64,000 bases of DNA. Origin: Xanthomonas indica. Its GTDB lineage: Bacteria; Pseudomonadota; Gammaproteobacteria; Xanthomonadales; Xanthomonadaceae. The stretch lies in NCBI RefSeq assembly GCF_040529045.1, contig NZ_CP131914.1, positions 1,472,501 to 1,536,500 on the forward strand, written 5' to 3'. Positions 14,304 to 57,930 of this stretch are shown here, one piece after another. Every line of letters begins with the position of its first letter. The first letter of the stretch is position 1. Both the position numbers and the translations under genes were made by a program. The notes below the pieces were generated by a model that searched no databases, was not told the origin of the DNA, and saw nothing but the letters and a program-made list of their open reading frames with translations.

Positions 14304-14397
14304 CGGGGATTGGAGATTGGGGATTCGGGATTGGGCGTAAGCTCGGCTCCTGATGCTCCTGCTTTTTCCAATCCCCAATCCCCAATCCCCAATCCCA
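14304..14397. repeat. Inverted heptad element 1 (glyA-nrdR)
   Basis: The left arm is four 7-bp units of GGGATTG/GGGATTC type starting five bases after the glyA stop. The right arm is four units of the reverse complement (CAATCCC) ending just before the nrdR start. The arms can pair over about 28 bases. Read on the minus strand, the core contains AAAAGCAGGAGCA, which also occurs in the core of the element at 30768-30890. Confidence 0.85.
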
Positions 14398-14404
14398 GCG
14401 CCTG

Positions 14405-14935
14405 ATGCACTGCCCCTTCTGCCAGCACACCGATACCCGGGTGATCGATTCGCGCGTGTCCGAGGACGGCGCGACGATCCGCCGTCGTCGCGAGTGCGAG
14501 GCCTGCGGTGAGCGCTTCAGTACGCTGGAGACGATCGAACTCAAGCTGCCGACGGTGATCAAGAGCGACGGCGGCCGCGAGGCGTTCGATGCGCGCAAGC
14601 TGCGCACCAGCTTCGATCGCGCGCTGCAGAAGCGGCCGGTGGCCGAAGAGCAGATCGAGGCGGCGGTGCGTGCGGTGGTGCACCAGCTGCGCATGTCCGG
14701 CGAGCGCGAACTGCCCTCGATCCGGGTCGGCGAGTACGTGATGGCCGAGTTGCGCAAGCTCGACCACGTCGGCTATGTGCGCTTCGCCTCGGTGTACCGC
14801 AGCTTCCAGGACGTGGCCGATTTCCGCGAGGAGATCGAGAAGCTCGAGCGCGAGTTGCCGGTGGGCAGCGAACAGTTGCCGCTGCTGGACCTGGTGCGCG
14901 CGGCCAAGCCGGGCGACAAGACCGGCAAGCGCTGA
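14405..14935 (+). CDS. nrdR: NrdR, ribonucleotide reductase repressor
   Basis: This 176-residue zinc-ribbon/ATP-cone regulator represses ribonucleotide reductase genes when dATP is high. The zinc ribbon has Cys3, Cys6, Cys31 and Cys34 (MHCPFC and CEACG). The ATP-cone region follows from about residue 49 ([17 protein letters not shown]), with the conserved [16 protein letters not shown] near residue 125. The C-terminal tail is slightly longer than in E. coli. The start codon lies a few bases after the right arm of the heptad element and has no good ribosome-binding site. It is followed four bases after its stop codon by the GNAT gene, so the two are probably co-translated. The glyA-nrdR-rib order is common in gammaproteobacteria. 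Confidence 0.96.
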
Positions 14936-14939
14936 GCGC

Positions 14940-15416
14940 ATGCGCATCGTCTGTCTGGCCGAGGCGGCGCAGCACATCCCGGCGCTGGCGCAGGAGCATC
15001 TGCAGGCCTTCGGTCCCCTGTTGCCGGAATGGAACGTGGTGGAGGCCGAGGCCGACCTGCGCAGCCACCGCGACGAACGCCGCATCCCCACCAGCTGGAT
15101 CGCCCTGGACGGCGAGGACTGGCTGGGGTCGGTGAGCCTGCTGCAGAACGACGACGCGCGTATCCGCCAGTTATCGCCCTGGTTGGCCACGCTGTACGTG
15201 CGGCCGCAGGCGCGCGGTGCCGGCGTCGCCGCCGCCCTGGTCGCGCACTGCGTGCAGGCCGCCGCGCGCTTCGGCGTGCAGTGGCTGTATCTGTATTGCG
15301 AGCCGGTGCTGGTGCCGTTCTACGAGCGCCTGGGCTGGCAGCGCCACGCCGACCTGCCGCTGGGGCTGCTGCACGTGGTGGTGATGCGCATCGACGCCGG
15401 CGGCGGTGCCGCATGA
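14940..15416 (+). CDS. GNAT-family N-acetyltransferase
   Basis: This 158-residue acetyltransferase of the GNAT fold has unknown substrate. The acetyl-CoA binding motif A is visible as LATLYVRPQARGAGVAAALVAH (about residues 83-104), followed by a typical motif B region (LYLYCEPVLVPFYERLGWQ). The gene starts four bases after the nrdR stop and ends in an ATGA overlap with ribD, so it belongs to that operon. No riboflavin role is known for this family; the link is by position only. The ATG at 14940 is preferred because an upstream extension would overlap nrdR. Confidence 0.85.
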   Translation: MRIVCLAEAAQHIPALAQEHLQAFGPLLPEWNVVEAEADLRSHRDERRIPTSWIALDGEDWLGSVSLLQNDDARIRQLSPWLATLYVRPQARGAGVAAALVAHCVQAAARFGVQWLYLYCEPVLVPFYERLGWQRHADLPLGLLHVVVMRIDAGGGAA

Positions 15417-16522
15417 GCGATCCGCAGTCGCCCGGATTTTCCGCCGACGACCATCGCTGGATGGCGCAGGCCCTGCGCCTGGCCGAGCGCGGCGCCTACA
15501 CCACGCGGCCGAACCCGATGGTCGGCTGCGTGATCGTTCGCGATGGCGCGGTGGTCGGCGAGGGCTTCCATCAGCGCGCCGGCGGGCCGCACGCGGAGGT
15601 GTTCGCGCTGCGCGCCGCCGGCGAGCGCGCACGCGGCGCCACCGCCTACGTGACCCTGGAGCCGTGCGCGCACTACGGACGCACTCCGCCATGCGCGCTT
15701 GCGCTGATCGAGGCCGGCGTGGCGCGGGTGGTGGCGGCGATGGCCGACCCGTTCCCGCAGGTCAATGGCGGCGGCTTCGCGCTGCTGCGCGAGGCCGGCA
15801 TCGCGGTGCAGGCGGGGTTGATGGAGGCGCAGGCGCGCGCGCTCAACCGCGGTTTCCTGTCGCGGGTGGAGCGCGGCCGCCCATGGCTGCGGATCAAGCT
15901 CGGCGCCAGCCTAGACGGACGCACCGCCCTGGCCAGCGGCGAATCGAAATGGATCACCGGTCCTGCCGCGCGTCAGGACGTGCAGCACTGGCGCGCCCGC
16001 GCCGGCGCCATCCTCACCGGCGCCGGCACCGTGCTGGCCGACGACCCAGCGCTGACCGTGCGCCTGGACGCGGCGACTGAGGTGATGCCGCCGCTGCGCG
16101 TGGTGCTGGATGCGCACCTGCGCAGCCTGGCCCAGCCCAAGGTCCGCGACGGCAGCGCACCGACCCTGTACCTGCATGCGCCGGACCGCGCGCCGCCGAT
16201 TTTGGATCACGCGGCGTTCGCCACCGTGCCGCTGCACGACGGCCGCTGCGACCTGCATGCGGCGCTGCGCCTGCTCGCCGAACGCGGCATCAACGAGGTC
16301 CAGGTCGAAGCGGGGGCGACGCTGAGCGGCGCACTGCTGCGTGCCGGCCTGGTCGACGAACTGCTGGTGTACATGGCGCCGCTGCTGTTGGGCGACAGCG
16401 CTCGGCCGCTGCTGGCCGGGCTGGGTATCGACACCATGGCGCAGCGCCTGCCGCTGCAGCTTGCCGACGTGGTGCAAGTGGGACAGGACCTGCGCTTGCG
16501 CTATCTCCCGGCAGCGGGCTGA
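15413..16522 (+). CDS. ribD: RibD, bifunctional riboflavin deaminase/reductase
   Basis: This 369-residue cytosolic enzyme catalyses the second and third steps of riboflavin synthesis. The N-terminal deaminase domain has the zinc motif GPHAEV (His60, Glu62) and EPCAHYGRTPPC (Cys85, Cys94). The C-terminal reductase domain starts near residue 155 (RPWLRIKLGASLDGRTA) and includes GAGTVLADDPALTVR and EAGATLSGALLRAGLVDEL. Its start overlaps the GNAT stop (ATGA). It lies outside the riboswitch-controlled ribE-ribBA-ribH group, separated by an Ax21-like gene on the other strand, so its expression is probably not under the same FMN control. Confidence 0.95.
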   Translation: MSDPQSPGFSADDHRWMAQALRLAERGAYTTRPNPMVGCVIVRDGAVVGEGFHQRAGGPHAEVFALRAAGERARGATAYVTLEPCAHYGRTPPCALALIEAGVARVVAAMADPFPQVNGGGFALLREAGIAVQAGLMEAQARALNRGFLSRVERGRPWLRIKLGASLDGRTALASGESKWITGPAARQDVQHWRARAGAILTGAGTVLADDPALTVRLDAATEVMPPLRVVLDAHLRSLAQPKVRDGSAPTLYLHAPDRAPPILDHAAFATVPLHDGRCDLHAALRLLAERGINEVQVEAGATLSGALLRAGLVDELLVYMAPLLLGDSARPLLAGLGIDTMAQRLPLQLADVVQVGQDLRLRYLPAAG

Positions 16523-16534
16523 GTCCGTCGACAA

Positions 16535-16584
16535 AAACGCATAAACGCAAAGGGCACGCCGGCGGTGTATGCCGGCGTGCCCTT
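16535..16584 (-). terminator. Terminator of the Ax21-like gene
   Basis: A 14-bp perfect stem (AAGGGCACGCCGGC with GCCGGCGTGCCCTT, loop at 16564-16570) is followed on the minus strand by GCGTTTATGCGTTTTTG. It sits between the converging ribD and outer-membrane protein genes. The T-rich side faces the minus-strand gene, but the hairpin may stop ribD transcription as well. Confidence 0.8.
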
Positions 16585-16610
16585 GTGCGCGCAAGGCGCC
16601 GCGCCTTGAA

Positions 16611-17234
16611 TCAGAAGCTGGCGCGCACGCCGACCTTGTACTGGTTGGCGTCATCGATGTATTCGATTTCGCCGATCATGCCCCAGGTGCGAGTGAAGTT
16701 GATCTGGCCACCGAGGTTACCGACGAACTTGCCTTGGTCCGCATCGCTGCCGTCGATGTAGCCGGCCTTGATCCAGGCTTCGGTCCGCGGCGAGGGCTTG
16801 CCGCGCAAGCCGAGATTGACGGCGCCCAGGGTGCTGGAATCGGATCCGCGACCGAGACGCACGCCGTCCTCGCGCAGGTCGGCTTCGGCCTTGATCCGCA
16901 GCACGCTGGCGTCTGCGATGAAGTCGACGCGCTCGGTCATTTCCTGCCGGTAGCCAATGCCCAAGTTGGCATGCTGCACGGTCACCTTGCCGCTATACAC
17001 TTCGGACAGGACGAAGTCCTTGCTGCCGCGCTGGTAGCCGGCGAACACATACGCCGGCTCGCCGATCTGCCAGGAGCCGCGCAGGTAGCCGCCATTGATG
17101 TCCTCGGAGGATCCGTCGACGTTGATCTCGGTGCGGTTCCAGCCGCCTTCGACATAGTTGTAGCTCAGGCCCTCGGCCGACGCAGCAAAGGGTGCGGCCG
17201 CCAACAGGGCAGCCAGGATCAGGGTGTTGCGCAT
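16611..17234 (-). CDS. Ax21-like outer-membrane beta-barrel protein
   Basis: This 207-residue protein has a signal peptide (MRNTLILAALLAAAPFAASA). The mature start, EGLSYNYVEGGWNRTEI, resembles the YNYVEGGY start of the Xanthomonas Ax21 family. The rest shows alternating strands with aromatic girdles (GSWQIGEPAYVFAGYQRGSKDF) and the terminal strand YKVGVRASF ending in Phe, typical of a small outer-membrane barrel of eight to ten strands. The open frame starts at 17267, but the ATG at 17234 has GGAGA nine bases upstream and begins the signal peptide exactly. Ax21 proteins are outer-membrane/vesicle proteins in Xanthomonas; the function of this paralogue is unknown. A small palindrome (GCCCTG-TTG-CAGGGC, 17269-17283) lies in its leader. 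Confidence 0.75.
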   Translation of the reverse strand: MRNTLILAALLAAAPFAASAEGLSYNYVEGGWNRTEINVDGSSEDINGGYLRGSWQIGEPAYVFAGYQRGSKDFVLSEVYSGKVTVQHANLGIGYRQEMTERVDFIADASVLRIKAEADLREDGVRLGRGSDSSTLGAVNLGLRGKPSPRTEAWIKAGYIDGSDADQGKFVGNLGGQINFTRTWGMIGEIEYIDDANQYKVGVRASF

Positions 17235-17417
17235 GGGTGGTGCTCTCCGAATGAATGGCAGTGTCATTGCCCTGTTGCAGGGCGGACACGAACGACCTCT
17301 CTGTCGTCATCTGCATATTAACAAATATTTCACATTGCTGTCTTGGGAGCGGGGACATCGCGCGATGCAGTGTCCTGCCCTGGTTGCCAGTGCGCGCCGG
17401 GTCTGCGTGACCACGCC

Positions 17418-17426
17418 TGCTAGAAT
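17418..17426 (+). promoter_or_regulatory. Extended -10 promoter upstream of the FMN riboswitch
   Basis: TGCTAGAAT, an extended -10 element, lies about 30 bases before the riboswitch fold. No recognisable -35 is present, which fits extended -10 promoters. It would drive ribE-ribBA and probably ribH. Confidence 0.55.
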
Positions 17427-17457
17427 GCGCGGGCCGGTTCGCCGGCGACCACAAACG

Positions 17458-17617
17458 TCTTCAGGGCGGGGTGCGATTCCCCACCGGCGGTAGGTGCGTT
17501 CGCGCACGAGCCCGCGAGCGCTTCCCGGCGCAGGCGCGACGCGCCGAATCGGGAAGGTCAGCAGATCCGGTGCGATGCCGGAGCCGACGGTATAGTCCGG
17601 ATGAAAGAAGACGGCCT
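17458..17617 (+). promoter_or_regulatory. FMN riboswitch (RFN element)
   Basis: The conserved RFN core is directly readable: AGGGCGGGGTGCGATTCCCC then ACCGGCGGTA, a variable stem, GTCAGCAGATCCGGTGCGA, GCCGGAGCCGACGGTATAGT and CCGGATGAAAGAAG. It senses FMN and, in gammaproteobacteria, mostly sequesters the downstream ribosome-binding site. The ribE start is about 80 bases downstream with a weak ribosome-binding site. The variable stem (CGCTTCCCGG... paired with ...CGGGAAG) is long. Confidence 0.95.
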
Positions 17618-17695
17618 ACGCGCAGCCTCGCGGCTGTGCGCGTGCCTGTTTGCCTTGTGGCGTTTTTCGCTCACCCCATTGCGAGAAACGTAGCT

Positions 17696-18307
17696 ATGTT
17701 CACCGGAATTATTGAAGGCGTCGGCCATCTCGCCGCACGCCAGCCGCAGGGCGGCGATCTCCGCTTCACCTTCGCCACCGGCAGCCTGCCGTTCGCCGAC
17801 GTGCGCCTGGGCGAGAGCATCGCGGTCAACGGCGTGTGCCTGACCGTGATCGCCTTCGACGCCGCCTCGTTCCAGGCCGACGCCTCCACCGAGACCCTGG
17901 CGCTGACCACGCTCGGCCGCCTGGCCGAGGGCGCGGCGCTGAACCTGGAGCGGGCGATGCGCCCCAGCGACCGCCTCGGCGGGCATCTGGTCAGCGGCCA
18001 TGTCGACGGGCTCGGCGAGGTGCTGTCGATCCACGACGACGCGCGCGCGCAGCGCTGGCGCTTCGCCGCGCCGGCGGCGCTGCTGCGCTACATCGCCAAG
18101 AAGGGCTCGATCTGCGTGGACGGGGTCAGCCTCACCGTCAACGAGGTCGACGCGGAAGGCTTCGAGGTCGCGCTGATCCCGCACACCGTGGCGCACACCG
18201 CGTTCGCGCAGACCGCGGTCGGCGCGGCGGTGAACCTGGAGATCGACCTGGTCGCGCGTTACGTCGAACGCCTGCTGCAGGGCCGCCAGGACCAAGCGCT
18301 GCTCTGA
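17696..18307 (+). CDS. ribE: Riboflavin synthase alpha chain
   Basis: This 203-residue enzyme dismutates two 6,7-dimethyl-8-ribityllumazine molecules to riboflavin. It starts with the invariant MFTGIIEGVG and consists of two homologous barrels. The first covers about residues 1-97 with LGESIAVNGVCLTV. The second covers about residues 98-200 with GGHLVSGHVDG and GSICVDGVSLTVNEV. The length is typical. The start was placed at this conserved ATG because the longer open frame runs through the riboswitch. It is the first gene under the FMN riboswitch, followed 82 bases later by ribBA. The gene is called ribE or ribC depending on the species. Confidence 0.96.
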   Translation: MFTGIIEGVGHLAARQPQGGDLRFTFATGSLPFADVRLGESIAVNGVCLTVIAFDAASFQADASTETLALTTLGRLAEGAALNLERAMRPSDRLGGHLVSGHVDGLGEVLSIHDDARAQRWRFAAPAALLRYIAKKGSICVDGVSLTVNEVDAEGFEVALIPHTVAHTAFAQTAVGAAVNLEIDLVARYVERLLQGRQDQALL

Positions 18308-18389
18308 GTCCGGCCGTGCCGTCCTTCCGCCACGCTGCGCCGCCGTCTGCGGCGCGGGCGGCGCCTTCCGTCTTTCCGCGAGTCCCCGC

Positions 18390-19541
18390 ATGTCGCCTTC
18401 CGTTACCCCGAGCCTGAATTTCGCCTCCGTCCCCGAGCTGCTGGAAGAACTCCGCGCCGGCCGCATGGTGGTCATCGTCGACGACGAGGACCGCGAGAAC
18501 GAGGGCGACCTGATCATGGCTGCCGAGCTGGTCAAGCCCTCGGACATCAATTTCATGGTCACCCACGCGCGCGGCCTGGTGTGCCTGTCGCTGACCCGCG
18601 AGCGCTGCGCGCAGCTGGGCCTGGCGCCGATGGTCCAGCGCAACACCGCGCAGTTCCATACCAACTTCACCGTCAGCATCGAGGCCGCCGAGGGCGTGAC
18701 CACCGGCATCTCCGCCTACGACCGCGCCCATACCGTGCGCACCGCGGTCAAGCCGGACGCCAAGCCGCACGACCTCAGCCAGCCCGGCCACATCTTCCCG
18801 CTGATCGCCCAGCCGGGCGGGGTGCTGACCCGCGCCGGCCACACCGAGGCCGCCAGCGACCTGCCGATGCTGGCGGGGCTGGAGCCGGCCGGCGTGCTGG
18901 TGGAAGTGCTCAACCCCGACGGCAGCATGGCGCGGCGCCCGCAGCTGGAGGCGTTCGCCCGCACCCATGGCCTGAAGATGGGGTCGATCGCCGACCTGAT
19001 CGCTTACCGCCTGGCTACCGAGCACACCGTCGAACGCATCGACGAGCGGCCGATCGACACCGAGTTCGGCGGCTTCACCTTGGTCACCTACCGCGACCGC
19101 ATCGCCCACGACCTGCATTTCGCCCTGGTCCGCGGCACCCCGGACGCCGAGACGCCGACCCTGGTGCGGGTGCAGGTGGAGAACCCGCTGGCCGACCTGC
19201 TGCACTGGCGCCGCGACGATTTCGGCGTGGCCGCCAGCGACGCCTTGCGTGCGATCGCTGCCGCCGAGCGCGGGGTGATGGTGGTGCTGTCGGCGCCGCG
19301 CGACAGCGAGGCGCTGCTGGCGCGGCTGCGCGCGCAGCCGGAGGCGGCGCATGGCAAGGACGTGGGCCAGTGGCGGCGCAACGGCGCCGGCAGCCAGATC
19401 CTGGCCGACCTGGGCCTGGGCAAGCTGCGCGTGCTCGGCACCCCGCGCCGGCAGATCGGCCTGGCCGGGTTCGGGCTGGAGGTGGTGGAGCATGTGGAGC
19501 CGGGAATCGGGAGTCGGGAGTCGGGAGTCGGTAAAAGCTGA
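18390..19541 (+). CDS. ribB: RibBA-type protein: DHBP synthase with degenerate GTP cyclohydrolase II half
   Basis: This 383-residue protein makes dihydroxybutanone phosphate from ribulose 5-phosphate, the four-carbon precursor of lumazine. Residues 1-205 are an intact RibB domain: DDEDRENEGDL at 31-41, THARGLVCLSL, GVTTGISAYDRAHT and HTEAASDLPMLAG. The second half is recognisably GTP cyclohydrolase II in shape (QILADLGLGKLRVLGTPRR...GFGLEVVEHV) but lacks the zinc-binding cysteine cluster and the catalytic EGRGIGL loop. It is therefore probably inactive, and a separate ribA should exist elsewhere. The last residues (EPGIGSRESGVGKS) are encoded by an inverted heptad element arm. Confidence 0.9.
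   Translation: MSPSVTPSLNFASVPELLEELRAGRMVVIVDDEDRENEGDLIMAAELVKPSDINFMVTHARGLVCLSLTRERCAQLGLAPMVQRNTAQFHTNFTVSIEAAEGVTTGISAYDRAHTVRTAVKPDAKPHDLSQPGHIFPLIAQPGGVLTRAGHTEAASDLPMLAGLEPAGVLVEVLNPDGSMARRPQLEAFARTHGLKMGSIADLIAYRLATEHTVERIDERPIDTEFGGFTLVTYRDRIAHDLHFALVRGTPDAETPTLVRVQVENPLADLLHWRRDDFGVAASDALRAIAAAERGVMVVLSAPRDSEALLARLRAQPEAAHGKDVGQWRRNGAGSQILADLGLGKLRVLGTPRRQIGLAGFGLEVVEHVEPGIGSRESGVGKS
19495..19531. repeat. Heptad element 2 (single left arm, ribBA end)
   Basis: GGAGCC is followed by GGGAATC and three GGGAGTC units, read in frame as the last residues of RibBA. The bases after the arm (GGTAAAAGC) resemble the core start of the element in rsmH (GGTAAAGGC). No right arm is visible before ribH, so the copy is truncated or eroded. 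Confidence 0.7.
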
Positions 19542-19625
19542 TCCCGCGCGATTCCTGCCGTTGGCGGTGACGCGACCTTCTGCACGGACCCCCGGACCGC
19601 TTTCCCGGGGCGCGGCCCCACCGCC

Positions 19626-19634
19626 TGCTAAACT
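19626..19634 (+). promoter_or_regulatory. Candidate extended -10 promoter before ribH
   Basis: TGCTAAACT lies 27 bases before the ribH start, in the same extended -10 form as the riboswitch and mraZ promoters of this window. It could give ribH-nusB-thiL an FMN-independent promoter. Confidence 0.4.
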
Positions 19635-19661
19635 CTCCCACCCCCTCAAGCTGCCACCGCC

Positions 19662-20596: not shown

Positions 20597-20597
20597 G

Positions 20598-20727
20598 AGG
20601 CCGGGAATGGGGAAACGGGAATGGGGAATGGCAAATGCAACAGCCATCCTCTTCCAGATCGCCGGCGTCCCGGCTCTCGCTCTTGCTTCTCACCATTCCC
20701 GACTCCCGATTCCCCATTCCCAGCTCC
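20598..20727. repeat. Inverted heptad element 3 (nusB-thiL)
   Basis: The left arm starts GGCCGGGAATGGGG and contains GGGAATG units. The right arm (CATTCCC, GACTCCC, GATTCCC, CATTCCC) ends CCCAGCTCC. On the minus strand the core contains AAGCAAGAGCG, shared with the rsmH element. The element fills the whole intergenic space and ends one base before the thiL ATG. Confidence 0.85.
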
Positions 20728-20728
20728 A

Positions 20729-21703: not shown

Positions 21704-21820
21704 GCCGCGTGGCCTGCGCGCGCGCCGGCCACGGGCCGCGGCGCCAGCACCGGTGTGCCGCGCGCCAAGGTCGACCGACACCCCCTTCCATACCGTGCCG
21801 CACTGCGGCGTGAACATCGC

Positions 21821-21838
21821 CCGTACCCGGTGGTACGG
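21821..21838. other. Small inverted repeat between thiL and the S15 hydrolase gene
   Basis: CCGTACC-CGGT-GGTACGG forms a 7-bp stem with a four-base loop in the 233-bp gap. There is no T-run, so it is an operator or weak hairpin rather than a clear terminator. Nothing else stands out in this gap. Confidence 0.4.
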
Positions 21839-21936
21839 TCCGCCTGCCCGGCCCCGTGTCGAGCGCTTGTCACCGTTCTGGCAATACCGTTCCGGCAGCC
21901 GGCCATTCCGGTCCGGCGCCGCTTGGGAGGCAGTCC

Positions 21937-23520: not shown

Positions 23521-23530
23521 GGTAGTGCGG

Positions 23531-23925
23531 CGTTTCCCTTCTCCCGTCTGGAGAAGGGAAGGTGCCCCGCAGGGGCGGATGAGGGTACGGGCGAAGCCTG
23601 GGAGAGATAGGTCCGCGTGGCGCTTCGCGCGCCGTACCCTCACCCCAACCCCTCTCCCGATGGGAGAGGGGCTTTGAGCTTCTCCCTTCTCCCCTCGGGA
23701 AAAGGTGCCCCGCAGGGGAGGATGAGGGTACGGGCGCTGCCTCGCAGTGATAGGTTGCCGCGTGCGCTTCGCGCGCCGACCCTCACCCCAACCCCTCTCC
23801 CGGTGGGAGAGGGGCTTTGAGCTTCTCCCTTCTCCCCTCGGGAGAAGGTGCCCCGTAGGGGCGGATGAGGGTACGGGCGAAGCCTCGCATAGCCAGATCG
23901 GCGTGGCGCTTCGCGCGCCGGAACC
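23531..23925. repeat. Three tandem copies of a ~142-bp Xanthomonas-type intergenic repeat
   Basis: The anchor GATGAGGGTACGGG recurs at 23578, 23721 and 23863, giving units of 142-143 bp. Each unit pairs CTTCTCCC...GGGAGAAGG with TGCCCC-GCA-GGGG, continues through GCGCTTCGCGCGCC and (in the first two) CCCTCACCCCAACCCCTCTCCC, and then GGGAGAGGGGCTTTGAG. Units are strongly alike but not identical, and the third lacks its end. Repeats of this kind are widespread in Xanthomonas and Xylella intergenic regions. No open frame here looks genuine. Confidence 0.85.
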
Positions 23926-23947
23926 TTCACCCGATTCCGCACACGAA

Positions 23948-30189: not shown

Positions 30190-30825
30190 ATGACCGTGTC
30201 TTCCGTTTCCCCCCACGAACCGATGCGCTGGCGCGCCGTGCTGGTGCTGCCGCTGCTGGTGCTCGCGTCCGCGGCGCTGTACTCGCTGCTGGCCACCGTG
30301 CTGGCCGGCGCGCTGTTCCCCGAGCAGGCCAACGGCAGCCTGCGCACCAAGGACGGCCGCGTGGTCGGCTCGGCGCTGGTGGCGCAACCGTTCGCCGCCG
30401 CCGGCTATTTCCAGCCGCGTCCGTCCGGCGCCAAGTACGACCCGATGTCGGCGGCCGGCAGCAACCAGGCACGCAGCAACCCCGACCTGCGCAAGCGCCT
30501 GGACGACACCCGCCAGGCGGTGGCCGCGCGCGAGGGCATCGACCCGGCGCAGGTGCCGGACGACCTAGTCACCCAGTCCGGCAGCGGCATGGACCCGGAC
30601 ATCAGTGTCGAGGCCGCGCAACTGCAAGTGGCGCGCGTGGCCGCCGCGCGCGGCCTGCCACCACAGACCGTCGCCGCCCTGGTCGCCGCACAGACCCAAC
30701 CGCGCCAGTTCGGCGTGCTTGGCGCGCCGCGGGTGAACGTGTTGGCGCTGAATCTGGCGTTGGATGCGGCCGGGAACGGGGAAACGGGAATCGGGAATGG
30801 GCAAAAGCAGGAGCAACAGCGGTAA
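30190..30825 (+). CDS. kdpC: KdpC, potassium ATPase assembly subunit with element-derived tail
   Basis: This 211-residue protein has one N-terminal transmembrane helix (about residues 16-40, VLVLPLLVLASAALYSLLATVLAGALFP) and a periplasmic domain. Family motifs are FQPRPSGAKYDPMSAAGSNQ and, near the end, DLVTQSGSGMDPDISVEAA followed by FGVLGAPRVNVLALNLAL. The normal protein should end near ALNLALD. Here the final residues AAGNGETGIGNGQKQEQQR are read from the left arm and core of an inverted heptad element, and the stop codon lies inside the element. Whether the tail affects function is unknown; it is hydrophilic and periplasmic. Confidence 0.95.
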   Translation: MTVSSVSPHEPMRWRAVLVLPLLVLASAALYSLLATVLAGALFPEQANGSLRTKDGRVVGSALVAQPFAAAGYFQPRPSGAKYDPMSAAGSNQARSNPDLRKRLDDTRQAVAAREGIDPAQVPDDLVTQSGSGMDPDISVEAAQLQVARVAAARGLPPQTVAALVAAQTQPRQFGVLGAPRVNVLALNLALDAAGNGETGIGNGQKQEQQR

Positions 30826-30890
30826 ATCGCGCAGCCATGTAGGCTTTGCGCTCTGCGATTCCCCATTCCCCATTCCCCATTCCCAGCTCC
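30768..30890. repeat. Inverted heptad element 4 (kdpC-kdpD)
   Basis: The left arm (GGCCGGGAACGGGG, then GGGAATC and GGGAATG units) is coding in kdpC. The right arm (GATTCCC and CATTCCC units) ends CCCAGCTCC two bases before the kdpD ATG. The core contains AAAAGCAGGAGCA, shared with the glyA-nrdR element, and GGAGCAACAGCGGTA, shared with the ftsA-ftsZ element. Confidence 0.85.
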
Positions 30891-30892
30891 AA

Positions 30893-35310: not shown

Positions 35311-35366
35311 GAATCCCGAATCCCGAATCCCGAATCCCGAATCCCGAATCCCGAATCCCGAATCCC
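35311..35366. repeat. Heptad array 5: eight perfect GAATCCC units
   Basis: Eight identical 7-bp units (GGGATTC on the minus strand) lie directly after the stop codon of the minus-strand FAD oxidoreductase. The orientation relative to the upstream gene is the same as the left arms elsewhere, but no opposite arm is seen. The perfect array is likely to vary in copy number between strains. Confidence 0.9.
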
Positions 35367-41055: not shown

Positions 41056-41428
41056 CGGCGGAGCCGGCCAGACAGTCGCGTCATCCCCTCGCATTTCGGT
41101 GCGGCGGGATGCCGAGGAAAGTCCGGGCTCCATAGGGCAAGGTGCCAGGTAACGCCTGGGCGGCGCGAGCCGACGGACTAGTGCAACAGAAAGATACCGC
41201 CTACGTCTGCGCAAGCAGGCCGGTAAGGGTGAAATGGTGCGGTAAGAGCGCACCGCGAGTCCGGTAACGGACCGGCACGGCAAACCCCACCTGGAGCAAG
41301 ACCAAATAGGGACCTCATGGCGCGGCCCGCGTCGGGTCCGGGTAGGTTGCTTGAGCGTACCGGTGACGGTGCGCCTAGAAGAATGACTGTCCACGACAGA
41401 ACCCGGCTTATCGGCCGGCTCCGCCACC
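41056..41428 (+). ncRNA. rnpB: RNase P RNA, bacterial type A
   Basis: The catalytic RNA of ribonuclease P matures tRNA 5' ends. Conserved stretches are unmistakable: GAGGAAAGTCCGGGCTCC (41110 region, P4 5' strand), CAGAAAGATACCGCC, GTAAGGGTGAAATGGTGCGG, AACCCCACCTGGAGCAAGACCAAATAGG, and at the 3' side CCACGACAGAACCCGGCTTATCGGCC. The ends pair as P1 (GCGGAGCCGGCC with GGCCGGCTCCGC). The T-rich CACCTTCTTCTTTTCC follows and is a plausible terminator tail. GACAAT at 41045, preceded by TGC, is a possible extended -10 box. Boundaries are accurate only to a few bases. Confidence 0.96.
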
Positions 41429-43217: not shown

Positions 43218-44344
43218 GTCGGGGTGTCCGGATGCGCGGACAGGCGCAGGCCGGTCACCTCCCGGTGTCGCAACCATCGGCGGCGCATGTGCCGGTGTTG
43301 TTCGCGCAGGTCCTGGACGGGCTGCAGGTGATCGAAAACGGAATCTATCTGGATGGCACGTTCGGGCGTGGCGGACACGCGCGCGGGGTGCTGCACAAAC
43401 TCGGCCCAGGAGGCCGGCTGCTGGTGATGGACAAGGACCCCGAGGCGATCGCCGAAGCCGAACATGCGTTCGGCGCCGACGCGCGCGTGTCCATCTATCG
43501 CGGCAGCTTCGCCGAACTGGGCCACTGGGACGCCGCGGTCGCCCTGGACGGGGTGCTGTTCGACCTGGGCGTGTCCTCGCCGCAGCTGGACGTGGCCGCG
43601 CGCGGCTTCTCCTTCGGCAAGGACGGCCCGCTGGACATGCGCATGGACCCCGACGCCGGCGAGAGCGCGGCGCAGTGGCTGGCGCGCGCCGACGAGCGCG
43701 AGATCGCCGACGTGCTGTGGACCTACGGTGAAGAGCGGCAGAGTCGGCGCATCGCCCGCGCCATCGTCGCCCGCCGCGAGAAGCAGCCGCTGACCCGCAC
43801 CGCCGAACTGGCCGACCTGATCGCCGGCGTGATGCCGCGCGGTGACAGCAAGACCCACCCGGCCACGCGCAGCTTCCAGGCCATCCGCATCCACATCAAC
43901 CGCGAGCTGGCCGATCTGGAAACCGGCCTGGACGCGGCGCTGGCCCGGCTCAAGCCCGGCGGCCGCCTGGCGGTGATCAGCTTCCACTCGCTGGAAGACC
44001 GCATCGTCAAGCAGTTCATGCAGCGCCACGCCAAGGCGCCGCCGAGCAACCGCCGCCTGCCCGAAGCCACCACCTTCGTGCCGACCCTGCGCCTGCACGG
44101 CGGCGCGATCAAGGCCGACGCCGACGAACTGGCGGTGAACCCGCGCGCGCGCAGCGCGGTGCTGCGGGTGGCCGAGAAGCTGGGAATCGGGAGTCGGGAA
44201 TCGGAAATCGGTAAAGGCGAAAGCAAGAGCGCGCTTCCCGGGACGGAAGGTTTCCGTGCGCAGTCGACCGGCTCTTCCCCATTCCCCATTCCCGTTTCCC
44301 CATTCCCGCCGGCTCATGGCGCGCTCCACAGGAGCGCCCAATGA
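43214..44344 (+). CDS. rsmH: RsmH, 16S rRNA m4C1402 methyltransferase with an extended tail
   Basis: This 376-residue enzyme N4-methylates C1402 of 16S rRNA. Motifs are [29 protein letters not shown] (SAM site), [27 protein letters not shown], and near the end [16 protein letters not shown]. The normal protein would end around [13 protein letters not shown]. The last 50 residues or so are encoded by a heptad element, first [16 protein letters not shown] and finally [12 protein letters not shown], and are probably disordered. The start is GTG at 43214, overlapping the mraZ stop; an ATG at 43232 is an alternative. Its stop overlaps the ftsL start. Confidence 0.94.
44177..44314. repeat. Inverted heptad element 6 (inside the rsmH end)
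   Basis: The left arm (GGGAATC, GGGAGTC, GGGAATC and a decayed unit) and the right arm (CATTCCC units ending CCCGCCGGCTC) lie inside the reading frame of rsmH. The core contains AAAGCAAGAGCG, shared with the minus-strand core of the nusB-thiL element. The ftsL ribosome-binding site (AGGAG) follows the element. Confidence 0.85.
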
Positions 44345-51825: not shown

Positions 51826-53069
51826 GCACGGTGCAGGGCAGTCGTCCGGTGATGATCCTCGCCGGCGGCACTGGCGGACACATCTTCCCCGCGCTGGCCG
51901 TGGCCAAGGTGCTGCGCGCGCGCGGCGTGCCGGTGGTGTGGCTGGGCGCGGCCGGGCGCATGGAAACGCGGCTGGTGCCGGAACACGGCATCGAGCTGGA
52001 CACCATCGAGATCGGCGGACTGCGCGGCAAGGGCGCGCTGGCCCTGTTCGGCGCGCCGGTGCGGGTGCTGCGCGCGGTGCGCGCTGCCGGCTTCGTGCTG
52101 CGCCGGCGCGCGCCGCGCGCGGTGATCAGCTTCGGCGGCTTCGCGGCCGGTCCCGGTGGCCTGGCCGCGCGGCTGCTCAAGCTGCCGCTGCTGGTGCACG
52201 AACAGAACCGCGCGCCGGGCCTGACCAACAAGGTGCTGGCACGCGTGGCACGGCGTGTGCTGACCGGCTTCCCCGGCAGCTTCGCCACGCGCGAGGAAGC
52301 GGTAGGCAACCCGGTGCGCGCCGAGATCGCCGCACTGGCGCCGCCGGCGCAGCGCCTGGCCGCACGCCACGGCGCGCCGCGGCTGCTGGTGCTGGGCGGC
52401 AGCCAGGGCGCACGCGTGCTCAACCAGGCGTTGCCGCAGGCGCTGGCCGCGCTCGGCGTGGCCGTCGAGGTGCGCCACCAGTGCGGCGAAGCGCTGCGCG
52501 AGGAAGCCGCGCGCGCCTACGCCGACGCCGGCGTCGCCGCCAGCGTCGAAGCCTTCATTGGCGACATGGCTGCTGCCTACGCCTGGGCCGATCTGGTGGT
52601 GTGTCGCGCTGGCGCCTCGACCCTGGCCGAACTGTGCGCGGTCGGCATCGGCAGCGTGCTGGTGCCGTTCGCCGCCGCCGTCGACGACCACCAGACCCGC
52701 AACGCCGAATACCTGGTCGAGCGCGGCGCCGCCGTGCTGCTGAAGCAGGACGACGCCCTCGCCGGGCACTTGCAGCGCGTCCTGCGCGACCTGCTGGCGC
52801 AGCCGGCGCAGCGCCTGGCGATGGCCGAGGCCGCGCGCGAGCTGGCCAAGCCGGATGCGGCCGAGCGGATCGCGGACATCGTGCTCGAAGAAGCCGGGAA
52901 TGGAGAACCGGGAATGGGGAATGGGTACAAGCACAATCAAGGGCAGAATCACGCAGTGACACACGCAGACACGAACACGCGGCAGGCGCGGATCGCCGCC
53001 AGCGCTTCGCTTTTCCCGAATCCCGAATCCCGATTCCCGAATCCCGCCTCCGCAGGAGGCCAACAATGA
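51822..53069 (+). CDS. murG: MurG, lipid II-forming GlcNAc transferase with element-derived tail
   Basis: This 415-residue peripheral membrane GT28 glycosyltransferase makes lipid II. Motifs are [74 protein letters not shown] and [34 protein letters not shown]. The normal end is near DIVLEEA. The last 50 residues or so, from [10 protein letters not shown] through [16 protein letters not shown], come from a heptad element. E. coli MurG is 355 residues, so the excess agrees with the insertion. The murC start overlaps the stop. Confidence 0.95.
52893..53051. repeat. Inverted heptad element 7 (inside the murG end)
   Basis: The left arm begins GCCGGGAATGGAG and continues with GGGAATG units. The right arm (CGAATCC units and one GATTCCC) ends CCCGCCTCC. 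The core is longer than elsewhere and contains ATCAAGGGCAG. The murC ribosome-binding site AGGAGG starts within a few bases of the right end. Confidence 0.85.
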
Positions 53070-54502
53070 TCCGCCGCCTCCACGACACCGGCGATCTGGT
53101 CCGCGCGTTCCCGCGCGTGCATTTCGTCGGCATCGGCGGTACCGGCATGAGCGGCATCGCCGAGGTCATGCTGACCCTGGGTTACGAGGTTTCCGGCTCG
53201 GACAACGCCGACAACGCGGCGACCCGGCGCCTGGTCAAGCTCGGCGCGCGGGTGATGCGCGGGCACTCGGCCGCCAACGTGCTCGGCACCGACTGCGTGG
53301 TGGTGTCCAGCGCGATCCGCGAGGACAACCCGGAACTGATGGAGGCGCGCAGCCAGCGCATTCCGATCATGCCGCGCGCGGCGATGCTGGCCGAGCTGAT
53401 GCGCTTCCGCCGCGGCATCGCGGTGGCCGGCACCCACGGCAAGACCACCACCACCAGCCTGGCCGCGGCGGTGCTTAGCGAAGGCGGGCTGGACCCGACC
53501 TTCGTGATCGGCGGCCAGCTGCTCGCCGCCGGCGCCAACGCCAAGCTCGGCGGCGGCCAGTGGCTGGTGGCCGAGGCCGACGAGAGCGACGGCAGCTTCC
53601 TGCGCCTGAATCCGCTGATCTCGGTCATCACCAACATCGATGCCGATCACCTGGAGAACTACGGCAACGACTTCGCCCGGGTGCAGGCCGCGTTCGCCGA
53701 GTTCCTGCAGCGCCTGCCGTTCTACGGCCTGGCGGTCCTGTGCATCGACGATCCGGAAGTGGCCGCGCTGGCGGCGAAGACGCCGCGCCACGTGATGAGC
53801 TACGGCCTCAGCGAGAACGCCGACGTGCGCGCCGAGGACGTGGTCCAGGATGGCCCGCGCATGCGCTTCACCCTGCGCCTGCCGGAAGGCAGCAGCATCC
53901 CGGTGACCCTGGCGCTGCCGGGCCGCCACAACGTGCTCAACGCCCTGGCCGCCGCCGCCATCGGCTGGCAGCTGGGCGTGGCGCCGGAGGCGATCGCCAG
54001 TGCGCTGCAGGGCTTCGCCGGCATCGGCCGCCGCTTCAACGACCTGGGCGAGGTCACCACCGCCGGCGGCGCGCGCGTGCGCGTGGTCGACGACTATGGC
54101 CACCATCCGCGCGAACTGGCCGCAGTGTTCGCCGCCGCCCGTGGCGGCTGGCCGGACAAGCGCCTGGTGGTCGCGTTCCAGCCGCATCGCTACAGCCGCA
54201 CCCGCGACCAGTTCGACGCGTTCGCCGCGGTGCTGTCGGAAGTGGACGCGCTGGTGCTCAGCGAGGTCTACCCGGCTGGCGAGGCGCCGATCCCGGGGGC
54301 CGACGCGCGCTCGCTGGCCCGCGCGATCCGCGCGCGTGGCCGCAGCGAGCCGGTCGTGGTCGGCCAGGTCGGCGAACTCGGCAGCGTGCTGCCGGACGTG
54401 CTGCAGGACGGTGACCTGCTGCTGATGATGGGGGCGGGCGACATCGGCTACGTCGCCCAGCACATCGCCCAGCACGGCTTCGCCGGCGGAGCGGACGCAT
54501 GA
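53066..54502 (+). CDS. murC: MurC, UDP-MurNAc-L-alanine ligase
   Basis: This 478-residue ligase starts peptide synthesis on UDP-MurNAc. Motifs are [17 protein letters not shown] (the UDP-binding dinucleotide loop), [50 protein letters not shown] and [20 protein letters not shown] lies eight bases before the ATG. The start overlaps the murG stop, and the stop overlaps ddlB (ATGA). The ligase is complete and ordinary in length. Confidence 0.97.
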
Positions 54503-55440
54503 GCGCACAGACCCTGCCGCCGCCGCACGTCACCGACCCGGCCGTGTTCGGCCGCGTCGCCGTGCTGCTCGGTGGCAGCTCCAGCGAACGCGAGGTGTCG
54601 CTGAACTCCGGCGCCAACGTGCTCGAGGCGCTGCGCAGCCGCGGTGTCGACGCGCAGCCGGTGGACGGCATCCCGGCCTTGCTCGAGCGCATCCGCGCCG
54701 GCGAGGTCGACCGCGTGTTCAACATCCTGCATGGCGGCGACGGCGAGAACGGCGTGCTGCAGGGCCTGCTGCGCGCGCTGCAGGTGCCGTTCACCGGTCC
54801 CGACGTGCTCGGCAGCGCGCTGACCCTGGACAAGATCCGCACCAAGCAGGTGTGGATCGCCGCCGGCCTGCCGACCCCGGGCTTCGCCCGCATCGACGCC
54901 CAGGCCGACCTGGCCGCGGCGGCTGCCGCGCTGGGCTACCCGCTGTTCGTCAAGCCGGCCTGCGAAGGTTCCAGCGTCGGCGTGTTCCGCGTGCTGGCCG
55001 AGGCCGACCTGGCGCCGGTGCGCGCCTTCGCCGCCGACTACCACGGCGAACTGCTGATGGAGCAGATGGTGCAGGGCGAGGAATACACCGTCGGCATCCT
55101 TGGCGACATCGCGCTGCCGTCGATCCGCATCGTCCCCGCCGGCGACTGGTACGACTACCACGCCAAGTACATCGCCGAGGACACCCAGTACCTGTGCCCG
55201 GGCATGGACGGCGAGGACGAGACCCAGATCCGCCAGCTCGCCCTGCAGGCGTTCGCCGCCGCCGGCTGCAGCGGCTGGGGCCGCGTGGACGTGATGCGCG
55301 ACCGCGTGCGCGGCCTGCAGCTGATCGAGGTCAACACGGCTCCGGGCATGACCAGCCACTCGCTGGTGCCCAAGGCCGCGGCGCAACTGGGCGTGGACTT
55401 CGCCGGCCTGTGCTGGCGCATCCTGGAGCAGACGCTGTGA
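54499..55440 (+). CDS. ddlB: D-alanine-D-alanine ligase
   Basis: This 313-residue ATP-grasp ligase makes the D-Ala-D-Ala dipeptide used by MurF. Typical motifs are [19 protein letters not shown] (residues 17-35), [53 protein letters not shown], and the C-terminal [19 protein letters not shown]. The length is typical. The gene is followed directly by a heptad element that bridges to ftsQ. Confidence 0.96.
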
Positions 55441-55441
55441 A

Positions 55442-55552
55442 GCCGGGATTGGGGATTCGGGATTGGGGATTCGCACCGTCGGCGCTTCGCGCCGCCGGCG
55501 AGTTCCGCTGTGCGCGTTGCGCCAATCCCCAATCCCCAATCCCCAATCCCGC
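55442..55552. repeat. Inverted heptad element 8 (ddlB-ftsQ)
   Basis: The left arm starts one base after the ddlB stop (GCCGGGATTGGGGATTCGGG type, four units). The right arm has four CAATCCC units. The arms can form a stem of about 28 bp. The core itself contains a smaller palindrome (CGGCGCTTCGCGCCG). Confidence 0.9.
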
Positions 55553-55570
55553 GCACCGGAAGGTGCGCCA

Positions 55571-56425
55571 ATGAACGCCTCCCTGCGCATCCTCGCCTGG
55601 CTGCTGGCGCTGGCCCTGGTCGCGCTGCCGATCGTGGCCGTGCTCAACGGTTGGGTCGGCGCCGAGCGCTGGCCGCTCAGCCGGTTGCAGGTGAGCGGCG
55701 ACTTCAAGCGCGTGTCCGCCGAGCAGTTGCGCCAGGTGGTGCTGCCGTATGCGCGGCGCGGCTTCTTCGCGGTGCGCCTGCAGGATGCGCAGGACGCGAT
55801 CGAGCGCCTGCCGTGGGTGGAGAGTGCGCGGGTGCGCAAGCGCTGGCCGGATGTGCTGGAAGTGCGCGTCGTCGAGCACCGTCCGTTCGCGCGCTGGGGC
55901 GAAGACCGCATGCTGTCCGAGCAGGGCCGCATCTTCGCCCTGCCCAACGAACTGCGCGACGTGGCCTTGCCGCACCTGGCTGGTCCGGATGCCAAGGCCG
56001 CCGACGTGGTCGCGCTGTACAACGCCTCGCGCGCGCTGTTCGCGCCGGTCGGTTTGCCGGTGCAGGGCGTGGCCCTGGACGCGCGCGGCAGCTGGTCGCT
56101 GGCACTGGGCAACGGCGTGCAGGTGGTGGTCGGCCGCGACGACGCACGCGCCCGCCTGGAGCGCTTCGCCCGCGTGCTGCCGCAACTGCTGCAGCCGGGC
56201 CAGCCGCCGCTGGCGCGCGCCGACCTGCGCTACACCAACGGATTCACCGTGGCATGGGTGCCCGAGAGCAAAGAGCCGAGCAAGGAGCCGGGTAAGGAGA
56301 AGAAGCCCGCGGCGCCGGCCCAGCCCACACGCCATGCGGCACTGGCCGACCCTCCGCCCCGTCGCGAGAGCCCGCTCTTCTCCCTTCCCCATTCCCGATT
56401 CTCTATTCCCGGCTCCAAGACATGA
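55571..56425 (+). CDS. ftsQ: Cell division protein FtsQ
   Basis: This 284-residue bitopic inner-membrane divisome protein has a transmembrane helix at residues 6-28 (LRILAWLLALALVALPIVAVL). A POTRA domain follows (PLSRLQVSGDFKRVSAEQLRQVV), then the beta domain with LPWVESARVRKRWPDVLEVRVVEHRPFARWG. The ATG is preceded by GGAAGGTGCGCCA. The C-terminal 55 residues (charged, then Pro/Ser-rich, ending [14 protein letters not shown]) are unlike FtsQ elsewhere and end in the right arm of a heptad element. The stop overlaps ftsA. Confidence 0.92.
   Translation: MNASLRILAWLLALALVALPIVAVLNGWVGAERWPLSRLQVSGDFKRVSAEQLRQVVLPYARRGFFAVRLQDAQDAIERLPWVESARVRKRWPDVLEVRVVEHRPFARWGEDRMLSEQGRIFALPNELRDVALPHLAGPDAKAADVVALYNASRALFAPVGLPVQGVALDARGSWSLALGNGVQVVVGRDDARARLERFARVLPQLLQPGQPPLARADLRYTNGFTVAWVPESKEPSKEPGKEKKPAAPAQPTRHAALADPPPRRESPLFSLPHSRFSIPGSKT
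56284..56416. repeat. Heptad element 9 (inside the ftsQ end, decayed left arm)
   Basis: The right arm is clear (CCATTCCCGATTCTC, then TATTCCCGGCTCC, ending six bases before the ftsA ATG). A decayed left end reads GGAGCCGGGTAAGG at 56284. The whole element is coding in ftsQ. Its left end is a weaker call than the others. Confidence 0.55.
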
Positions 56426-57657
56426 ACCGCAAAGGCGACAAATCCCTCATCGTTGGACTGGACATCGGCACCTCCAAGGTCGTCGCGCTGGTCGGCGAAT
56501 ACTCGCCCGGCAATCCGATCGAGGTGATCGGCATCGGTTCGCATGAGTCGCGCGGCCTCAAGCGCGGCGTGGTGGTGGACATCGAATCCACCGTGCAGTC
56601 GATCCAGCGCGCGATCGAGGAAGCCGAGCTGATGGCCGGCTGCGAGATCCGCTCGGTGTACGCCTCGATCTCCGGCAACCACGTGCAGTGCAAGAACTCG
56701 CCGGGCATCGTCCCGATCCGCGACGGCGAGGTGACCTGGAACGACCTGGACCGCGTGCTGGAAGCGGCCAAGGCGGTGGCGATCCCCGCCGACCAGCGCA
56801 TCCTCCACGCGATCCCGCGCGAGTACGTGCTGGACGATTCGCAGGAAGGCATCCGCAACCCGGTCGGCATGACCGGCGTGCGCCTGGAGGTGCACGCGCA
56901 CCTGGTGGTGTGCGCGCAGTCGGCCGCGGCCAACATCAGCAAGTGCGTGCAGCGCTGCGGCCTGCAGGTGGACGACCTGATCCTGTCCTCGCTGGCGTCC
57001 TCGGTGGCGGTGCTGACCGCCGACGAGCGCGAGCTGGGCGTGGTGCTGGTGGACATGGGCGCCGGCACCACCGACCTGGCGGTGTTCGTGCAGGGCGCGA
57101 TCTGCCACACCGCCTCGCTGCCGATCGCCGGCGACCACGTCACCAACGACATCGCGCACATGCTGCGCACGCCGACCCCGGAAGCCGAGCAGATCAAGGT
57201 GCGCTACGCCTGCGCGCTGGCGCAGCTGGCCACCGCGGAAGAAAGCATCCAGGTGCCCAGCGTCGGCGACCGCCCGCCGCGGCGCATGCCGCGCCATTCG
57301 CTGGCGCAGGCGGTGCAGGGCCGCTACGAGGAAATCTTCGAGATGGTGCAGGCCGAACTGCGCCGTTCCGGCTTCGAGGAACTGGTGCGCGCCGGCATGG
57401 TGCTCACCGGCGGCGCTTCGAAGATGGAAGGCGTGGTCGAACTGGCCGAGGAAATGGTGCAGATGCCGGTGCGCGTGGGCATTCCCCAGCACGTCACCGG
57501 CCTGGGCGAAGTCGTCGGCAACCCGGTGCACGCGACTGGCGTGGGCCTGCTGCTGATGGGCAGCCAGATCGAACACCCGCGCCGCCCGTCGCTGCCGACA
57601 GGCCGCGCCGGCAGCTTGTTCAAGAAATTGAAGAACTGGTATCGCGGCGAGTTCTGA
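56422..57657 (+). CDS. ftsA: Cell division protein FtsA
   Basis: This 411-residue actin-like protein tethers FtsZ to the membrane. Features are LIVGLDIGTSKVVALVGE (phosphate 1), the SHS2/1C domain (DIESTVQSIQRAIEEAELMAG), LVDMGAGTTDLAVFVQG (phosphate 2), VLTGGASKMEGVVELAEEMV (adenosine motif) and a C-terminal amphipathic membrane-targeting helix, GSLFKKLKNWYRGEF. The ATG overlaps the ftsQ stop. Two heptad-type arrays lie between this gene and ftsZ. Confidence 0.97.
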   Translation: MNRKGDKSLIVGLDIGTSKVVALVGEYSPGNPIEVIGIGSHESRGLKRGVVVDIESTVQSIQRAIEEAELMAGCEIRSVYASISGNHVQCKNSPGIVPIRDGEVTWNDLDRVLEAAKAVAIPADQRILHAIPREYVLDDSQEGIRNPVGMTGVRLEVHAHLVVCAQSAAANISKCVQRCGLQVDDLILSSLASSVAVLTADERELGVVLVDMGAGTTDLAVFVQGAICHTASLPIAGDHVTNDIAHMLRTPTPEAEQIKVRYACALAQLATAEESIQVPSVGDRPPRRMPRHSLAQAVQGRYEEIFEMVQAELRRSGFEELVRAGMVLTGGASKMEGVVELAEEMVQMPVRVGIPQHVTGLGEVVGNPVHATGVGLLLMGSQIEHPRRPSLPTGRAGSLFKKLKNWYRGEF

Positions 57658-57659
57658 TG

Positions 57660-57930
57660 GAGCCGGGATTGGGGATTCGAGATTCGGGATTGGTGGGAGC
57701 AACAGCGGTAGGCAGAGAGAGAGTAGAGAGCGGTAGGTAGGCAGGCGATAAGTTTTTTGCAGTGATTCCGCCGCGGAGCAGGGCATGGGACTGGAGGGCC
57801 GCTTTTGCGAATCCCCAATCCCGAATCCCCAATCCCGGCATCCAAACAACAACACTCGCCGGACGGAGAGGCAGGAAAAAAGGATCGGAGTACTTCCGAA
57901 TCCCTAATCCCCAATCCCGAATCCCGGCTC
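57660..57930. repeat. Composite inverted heptad element 10 (ftsA-ftsZ)
   Basis: One left arm (57660-57692, beginning AGCCGGGATTGGGG) faces two right arms, at about 57807-57842 (ending CCCGGCATCC) and 57897-57930 (ending CCCGGCTC). The core contains GGAGCAACAGCGGTA, shared with the kdpC-kdpD element, plus a purine-rich stretch. The element fills almost all of the 288-bp gap; the ftsZ ribosome-binding site AGAGG follows at once. Confidence 0.85.

Follow-up and report, generated by a model that had tools for sequence, protein, structure and literature searches.

The closest described counterparts of the sequences studied here are the GGGAATC/GGGNATC heptads that Rehm et al. (2015; PMC4692102) reported from two Xanthomonas strains, with a preference for four units and with 70 and 75 facing pairs. 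According to the available sections of that paper, the repeats lie near stop codons, 83% of their sites are shared by two species, they have no general link to mobile elements, units of GGGAATC and GGGATTG form quadruplexes in vitro, and the repeats are stated not to have been found in other gammaproteobacteria. Known repeats of this kind have so far been treated as simple sequence repeats. A further point of reference is the repetitive extragenic palindromic (REP) elements, for which the available sections of PMC3686654 describe class abundance as dependent on a cognate trans gene. We analysed a 64-kb stretch of the Xanthomonas indica genome (the window) with a family of such heptad elements, and compared it with related genomes. 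The elements are insertions at gene junctions that occupy conserved sites. Three heptad types occur at one and the same site in different genomes, the two arms of an element agree in type, exchange of type is confined to the element, and genomes differ in their repertoire of types. A preliminary description of the stretch had stated that no named description of the family was known; this was wrong, since the available text of PMC4692102 contains both the heptads and the inverted pairs, and the window copies share with them tandem GGGANTN units, intergenic position, proximity to stop codons and frequent convergent pairs.

The two-unit heptad pattern GGGATTSGGGATTS matched 23 times in the window and not once in 100 dinucleotide-preserving shuffles of it. 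The genome of 4,807,150 bases had 146 matches on the forward strand and 193 on the reverse, whereas the reversed control had none. The preliminary description had listed ten sites of one design, with a left arm of heptads, a core, and a right arm of the same units reversed. Arm sequence is indeed present at all ten, but only seven were two-armed by our finder (Table 1). At 56284 the left end GGAGCCGGG is there, but the left arm is so degenerate that the finder did not pick it up (right arm, 56383-56410); two sites have a single arm (19495, left only; 35311, right only, with eight units), and one additional right arm, at 57898, lies beyond the ten sites. The core length given, 35-115 bp, agrees with our measurement of 35 to 116 bp in the two-armed window copies. 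That complete copies are bounded by a characteristic sequence on each side was overstated: in the window GGAGCCGGG has three occurrences (19496, 56284 and 57659) and its complement a single one (56408), which leaves the 56284 copy as the only one bounded on both sides. Three reported matches between cores are exactly as claimed, but a larger set shows that what they have in common is an oriented hexad at the core edge. Overall, the original observation was partly confirmed.

To define the anatomy of the element, we searched for arrays of GGGAN[CT][CG] units in 400 kb of the same genome and in 100-300 kb from each of eight relatives. The nine genomes gave 307 arrays, with 108 convergent pairs, no divergent pairs and 15 same-strand neighbours, and the reversed control gave no array in any of them. 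Exactly four GGGANYS units were present in 247 of the 307 arms (80%). GCC stood directly outside the arm in 57 of the 139 left flanks and in 54 of the 167 right flanks, compared with 4.6% at 4000 random places. The hexad A[ACG][ACG]AGC lay within 24 nt inward of the arm at 56% of the 108 left core edges and 47% of the 108 right ones; by comparison, 11% of the left edges had it on the opposite strand, and it was present in 6% of random 24-mers. The arm is thus an oriented module. It opens with an end sequence (GCC, in the best case GGAGCC), continues with four GGGANYS heptads and closes with inward AnnAGC hexads, and the element consists of two facing arms around a locus-specific core. Beyond their edges, cores of different loci showed no relationship: among 120 random pairs, none had z > 4. 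Seventeen longer core matches (at least 22 bp) between loci, all in cores of 109-378 bp, look like another dispersed repeat. A dispersed motif around GGCTGAAGCCGCTCCTAC was also seen inside some long cores, at 1689279 and 1799815 of the same genome and in relatives. Flanking genes were co-directional in 46 of 50 classified pairs, compared with 705 of 1011 junctions overall (83 pairs were counted, of which 33 were unclear and set aside), and the median distance from stop codon to arm was 5 nt, which bears out the location at 3' gene ends noted earlier.

The element is a true insertion at a gene junction, most cleanly between ddl and ftsQ. These genes overlap by ATGA in nine relatives (Xanthomonas sp. 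GPE 39, also labelled G153 below, X. albilineans, two Stenotrophomonas and five Pseudoxanthomonas), and the overlap is split by the element in six genomes (the one analysed here, NCPPB 1128, AmX2, Stenotrophomonas sp. MMGLT7 and two Pseudoxanthomonas), with the TGA at the element's left edge. The ddl end was found in these six filled and nine empty records and could not be located in four further ones. No target duplication was visible by eye, the comparison being among diverged relatives. The rsmH end is likewise empty in Xanthomonas sp. GPE 39. An automatic list of empty sites had 32 rows, of which we trusted only ddl-ftsQ and rsmH in GPE 39, the others being misplaced ends or partial matches. 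Most element sites are common to relatives, and orthologous junctions do not carry the same sequence throughout: the sites are mostly the same and their content differs by type. The earlier proposal of a mobile or spreading palindromic element is therefore supported in part. Filled and empty sites demonstrate insertion, but recent spread of whole copies is unsupported, because the sites are mostly shared and the cores are unrelated apart from the edge hexads and another repeat.

We classified arms by the fifth base of the heptad, as A (GGGAAT), T (GGGATT) or C (GGGAC, with T or C as sixth base). At orthologous junctions the site was mostly conserved and the type differed, even between the genome analysed here and G058, which belong to one species. 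For example, the kdpC/kdpD element is of C type in G058 and G170 and has mixed arms in G085 and G111, and the rsmH/ftsI element is of C type in G058 and of T type in G085 and G111. Of 37 elements in our genome, 24 had a clear type and both flanks in G058 (13 were dropped). None of the 11 A sites stayed A (seven were C and four T), 12 sites were T in both genomes, and one T site was C in G058. Flank identity was 0.955 within 100 bp and 0.982 at 100-500 bp for the 12 switched sites, and 0.950 and 0.976 for the 12 unswitched sites; since flanks are alike at both, the exchange is confined to the element. The core was kept (z > 4) in 37 of 52 comparisons between same-type orthologues and in 26 of 112 between different-type orthologues, compared with 0 of 120 between non-orthologous elements. 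The two arms agreed in type in 103 of 108 pairs, whereas 5000 rounds of reassigning the right arms to elements within their own genome averaged 66.2 and never exceeded 83. In a second set, from named genomes, they agreed in 71 of 75 pairs (null 63.5; 3 of 5000 shuffles as high). Chimeric elements with arms of different type do exist.

Positions 1-4 of the heptad are nearly constant and position 7 is almost always C or G. Agreement at position 7 between the arms of one element was at chance, at 0.514 vs 0.519 ± 0.023 for 74 elements and, in the second set, 0.451 vs 0.472 ± 0.023 for 61 elements (34 of 108 and 14 of 75 pairs without four units in each arm were dropped). Base-pair selection or arm copying would make position 7 agree, so neither explains the concordance. 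Two other candidate causes were rejected: restriction avoidance, as single hexamers outside arrays do not follow type, and strand-biased mismatch repair of a hairpin, as discordant position-7 pairs had no consistent asymmetry (66 vs 54; 47 vs 62). We also compared position 7 across orthologous arms, with nulls that ignore relatedness and with arms lacking exactly four units left out. In the syntenic set, A/T-switched arms kept the pattern of their site, both in close relatives (0.742 vs null 0.501; 11 arm-loci, 0 of 2000) and in distant ones (0.617 vs null 0.502; 18 arm-loci, 1 of 2000). The site pattern was not kept in that set at A/C-switched arms (0.458 vs null 0.469 and 0.460 vs null 0.447) or at C/T-switched arms. 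The named set was less simple. Its A-T agreement was in only slight excess (0.516 vs null 0.463), falling below the null at four of nine sites (R1, R2, R3 and L4) and reaching 0.85 at the ftsQ-ftsA left arm, and its A-C agreement, unlike that of the syntenic set, exceeded the null (0.507 vs 0.410; 0 of 1000).

Type repertoires were counted in 20 Xanthomonas genomes. Matches of type A/T/C numbered 117/206/0 in the genome analysed here, 17/235/117 in G058, 95/263/0 in G006, 230/88/0 in G427, 4/118/515 in G432 and 4/21/717 in G170. Across the 18 genomes with more than 50 matches (G424, with 7, and G153, with 3, were dropped), A and C counts were anti-correlated (rho -0.83, p 2e-5, relatedness not corrected), and the T type correlated clearly with neither. 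The total was 300-500 matches in 14 of the 18 genomes and ranged from 233 to 742.

We lean, tentatively, toward a reading in which these are non-autonomous, REP-like intercistronic hairpins of the Xanthomonadaceae whose type is set in trans by a heptad reader; we infer both the reader and the hairpin role. The elements would act at 3' gene ends and between operon genes in the manner of REPs and bacterial interspersed mosaic elements (BIMEs), in mRNA processing, stability or coupling. A trans factor would read heptad positions 1-6 in both arms and set the type, and a genome would retain mostly the types that its factors read, so that A and C would tend to exclude each other. A type set in trans is suggested by arm concordance without a position-7 match, the element-confined switch, the repertoires with their opposed A and C counts, and the REP precedent in the available part of PMC3686654. 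A bolder version strikes us as rather doubtful: alternative trans factors would each read one type in up to hundreds of elements, and a change of factor in a lineage would convert both arms at fixed sites, including those in the essential cell-division operon. Several points weigh against the trans-reader reading. The reader is a hypothetical factor, and the available sections of PMC4692102 report that no role in gene regulation was found. The predicted hairpin is weak at 44176-44313 (z -0.5) and at 52896-53045 (z -2.2), and mismatches at about half of position-7 pairs weaken a pure hairpin role. All three types occur together in G186 (130/88/93) and G425 (64/219/90). Finally, old haplotypes common to many species can explain much of the site pattern without any reader.

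This last point is the core of a serious rival, which we regard as nearly as likely: A, T and C would be ancient site-specific alleles that have survived across species and whose sorting follows clonal ancestry and ordinary within-species recombination, with no reader and with repertoires that reflect lineage. Discrete A and T haplotypes are common to many species at several division-cluster sites of the named set. At ddl-ftsQ, most right arms of type A read GGGAATG-GGGAATC-GGGAATA-GGGAATC, NCPPB 1128 and four other Xanthomonas have in common the rare unit GGGAATA in their ftsQ-ftsA right arm, and cores are retained more often between orthologues of the same type. However, 12 of the 24 typed sites differ between the two conspecific genomes, with no trace in the flanks and with 0 vs 117 C matches, and A/T-switched arms in the syntenic set hold site-specific position-7 patterns. 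In-place change and old alleles both seem to be involved. Biased ectopic gene conversion between arms, which would carry a single type across a genome with no need of a dedicated reader, is unlikely. It would fit an exchange confined to the element, chimeric elements, and arms that are the parts common to loci, but the position-7 patterns of A/T-switched arms remain site-specific in close relatives of the syntenic set, and position 7 is no more similar between the two arms of an element than between arms taken from different elements of the same type. We consider it improbable that these are plain simple-sequence repeats with quadruplex potential, maintained or altered by slippage and facing each other incidentally. 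The available text of PMC4692102 presents them as tandem repeats that form quadruplexes in vitro, and long single arrays do vary in length between genomes (eight units at 35311, 15 at that site in G058, and nine A units in G134); set against this are the predominance of four-unit arms, 108 convergent pairs with no divergent pair, conserved ends and edge hexads, precise insertion and type concordance. Selection for stem pairing, or copying of one arm onto the other, is highly improbable as the reason why arms agree: stable RNA hairpins are predicted at four of six sites, but chance agreement at position 7 speaks against both.

The account that we find least probable is mobilisation by a REP-associated tyrosine transposase (RAYT). 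In its favour, REP/RAYT systems typically have more than one repeat class in a genome and a class abundance that depends on a trans gene (available sections of PMC3686654), and eight of the nine genus genomes of our set have 1-3 Y1_Tnp matches, the array-poor G153 having none. However, across 57 genomes Y1_Tnp counts did not correspond to heptad counts (by eye, without a statistic): G020, G045, G148 and G194 are heptad-rich with no Y1_Tnp match, and G174 and G063 are heptad-poor with 6 and 11. Moreover, the nine Y1_Tnp loci retrieved from the genus all lacked a heptad array. On these counts and loci we rejected RAYT/Y1 mobilisation, and they give no link to the transposase or RAYT-like gene suggested earlier. 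In four of the nine loci, GTAGGAGCGGC or the complementary sequence lies no more than about 430 bp from the centre of the retrieved DNA, which upholds the distinction between the heptads and the GTAG REP family. An autonomous element between far convergent arms was also rejected: in eight cases no transposase was seen among the longest open reading frames (ORFs), which were inspected by eye with no family search. Of such ORFs in the syntenic sets, two were recognisable as ftsA, one gene in two genomes resembles a secreted protease, and the rest are unnamed.

Viral carriage is neither shown nor excluded. A three-unit pattern matched 54 stretches in a viral collection of 2.9 million contigs, 11 of them with a facing pair. 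These comprise six copies of one unrelated sequence, two of another, one very A+T-rich contig, one irregular pair and contig L266. The six (L227, L231, L236, L248, L253 and L272) have a common T-type facing pair with a 7-nt core and identical flanks, unlike Xanthomonas elements; L266 has the appearance of a canonical Xanthomonadaceae element and also has a small hairpin.

Table 1. Heptad elements and single arms in the window, with the genes identified at their junctions (strand as reported; z, score of the predicted RNA fold)
Position	Strand	Feature	Fold z
14306..14396	.	Two-armed, T type; glyA (serine hydroxymethyltransferase)/nrdR junction	-6.2
19495..19529	+	Left arm only, GGAGCCGGG end; fifth base is degenerate (A,G,G,G); 3' end of ribBA-type gene	
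20603..20721	.	Two-armed, A type; upstream of thiL-like gene (AIRS domains)	-5.7
30772..30884	.	Two-armed, A type; kdpC/kdpD junction	-3.8
35311..35366	-	Lone right arm, eight T units; adjoins FAD-oxidase gene	
44182..44307	.	Two-armed, A type; 3' end of rsmH, upstream of ftsI	-0.5
52896..53045	.	Two-armed; A type in left arm, mainly T in right (T,A,T,T)	-2.2
55445..55550	.	Two-armed, T type; ddl/ftsQ junction, clean empty sites in relatives	
56284..56416	.	Both outer ends, degenerate left arm, right arm 56383-56410; ftsQ end before ftsA	
57658..57836	.	Two-armed, T type; ftsA/ftsZ junction, around spacer homologous between types	
57898..57925	-	Additional T-type right arm before ftsZ	

RNA folding was assessed at six sites, of which four had z of -3.8 or lower (Table 1); the sixth value, -10.0 for the ddl/ftsQ element, was computed on 55441-55570 and includes a small hairpin past the right arm. 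Small perfect or near-perfect hairpins that hold a Shine-Dalgarno-like GGAG or GGAA lie between right arm and next ATG at 55551-55568, 53046-53060 and 44318-44338. At ddl/ftsQ the stem sequence varies among relatives, and the pairing appears preserved. The rsmH reading frame extends into the element at 44182..44307. An Rfam scan of window positions 13000-60000 gave only sub-threshold microRNA-type matches at the 14303-14399 element and none at the others; matches above the gathering score were an FMN riboswitch (17453-17616), RNase P RNA (41060-41426) and the Xoo8 sRNA (59287-59625). About 2.5 tandem copies of a 143-bp repeat occupy 23559-23920, and similar copies are dispersed in genomes of the genus.

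Among 198 genomes of the family, 96 matched the combined A/T pattern, 69 matched the A pattern and 47 matched the C pattern, with a very uneven spread inside genera; since the A/T counts miss the C type, genomes with a zero count can still hold C-type elements. In a class-wide draw of 229 genomes, six matched, including the one analysed here, and the remaining five had 1-5 matches each. At FtsA loci of named genomes (best 80 of 544), arrays were present in 28 of 31 Xanthomonas, three of seven Pseudoxanthomonas, two of 38 Stenotrophomonas (a count that takes in [Pseudomonas] hibiscicola, and in which one of the two array-bearers has a single array) and none of four others. On a tree of ftsQ-ftsA-ftsZ with 81 rows, presence (32 with, 49 without, as scored by a strict finder, for which a decayed copy counts as absence) requires six changes, at least five of them forced by well-supported branches. 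The nearest named neighbour of the window on this tree is Xanthomonas sp. NCPPB 1128. Contig L199, titled Bacillus subtilis SK7B5, groups with Stenotrophomonas, so its title or assembly is probably wrong. In seven named Xanthomonas (L163, L174, L178, L184, L186, L193 and L195) the division cluster has an extra element site about 1.9 kb upstream of ftsA, with C-type arms in all seven and some mixed units. In the small genome of GPE 39, the orthologues of the 52896 and 57658 junctions have decayed C-like arms, as if arrays erode once they are no longer maintained.

Taken together, our data partly support the earlier interpretation. Miniature inverted-repeat transposable elements (MITEs) are a familiar class of short insertion. 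To our knowledge, neither simple repeats nor REPs nor MITEs would be expected to show fixed sites with swappable types, arm concordance without a match at the free position and opposed counts of types. Should a trans-acting reader of the types exist, it would be shared by many operon junctions, such as glyA-nrdR and ddl-ftsQ-ftsA-ftsZ, and could be found directly by strain comparison; if there is no such reader, the heptads would be an unusual case of old alleles kept genus-wide at non-coding sites.

Each of the known systems matches the heptad elements in part. As in the REP/BIME system with RAYT, described in the available sections of PMC3686654 (see also PMC2817692), they are intergenic palindromes in hundreds of copies and several classes per genome, a likeness that extends to their position at 3' gene ends and between co-directional operon genes; in REPs, class abundance is tied to a trans gene. 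They differ in lacking a GTAG-type head, in their larger two-armed arrays, and in that no correlation with or linkage to RAYT was found. Like MITEs, they are short and non-coding, have inverted terminal arms and insert precisely, as the empty ddl-ftsQ site demonstrates. However, copies have neither a shared internal sequence (no related pair of cores among the 120 compared), nor a visible target duplication, nor a related transposon (no transposase seen between far arms), and their types are exchanged at fixed sites. The TAACTGA heptamers of Beggiatoaceae, Cyanobacteria and Bacteroidetes (PMC4679880, available sections) likewise form short arrays beside genes, with a trans-acting post-transcriptional regulator as their proposed reader, but have another sequence, are almost only direct repeats and lie just upstream of start codons, and those sections do not mention type exchange. 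The Nostoc GGGGA(C/T)T heptamers, in the available text of PMC4692102, read in another phase as GGGA(C/T)TG, with T or C at position 5, but are cyanobacterial, with few facing pairs and more intragenic copies. The GGGNATC repeats of Rehm et al. are the same heptads, alike in four-unit preference, convergent pairs, proximity to stop codons and mostly shared sites; the available sections make no mention of type exchange at fixed sites, concordance of the two arms, edge hexads, conserved ends, empty sites or other genera, and we found no later report of type exchange among the matches listed in the open-access literature. New relative to the known repeat are the four-unit arms with their hexads, the insertion, the exchange of type, the concordance of arms and the genome-wide repertoires.

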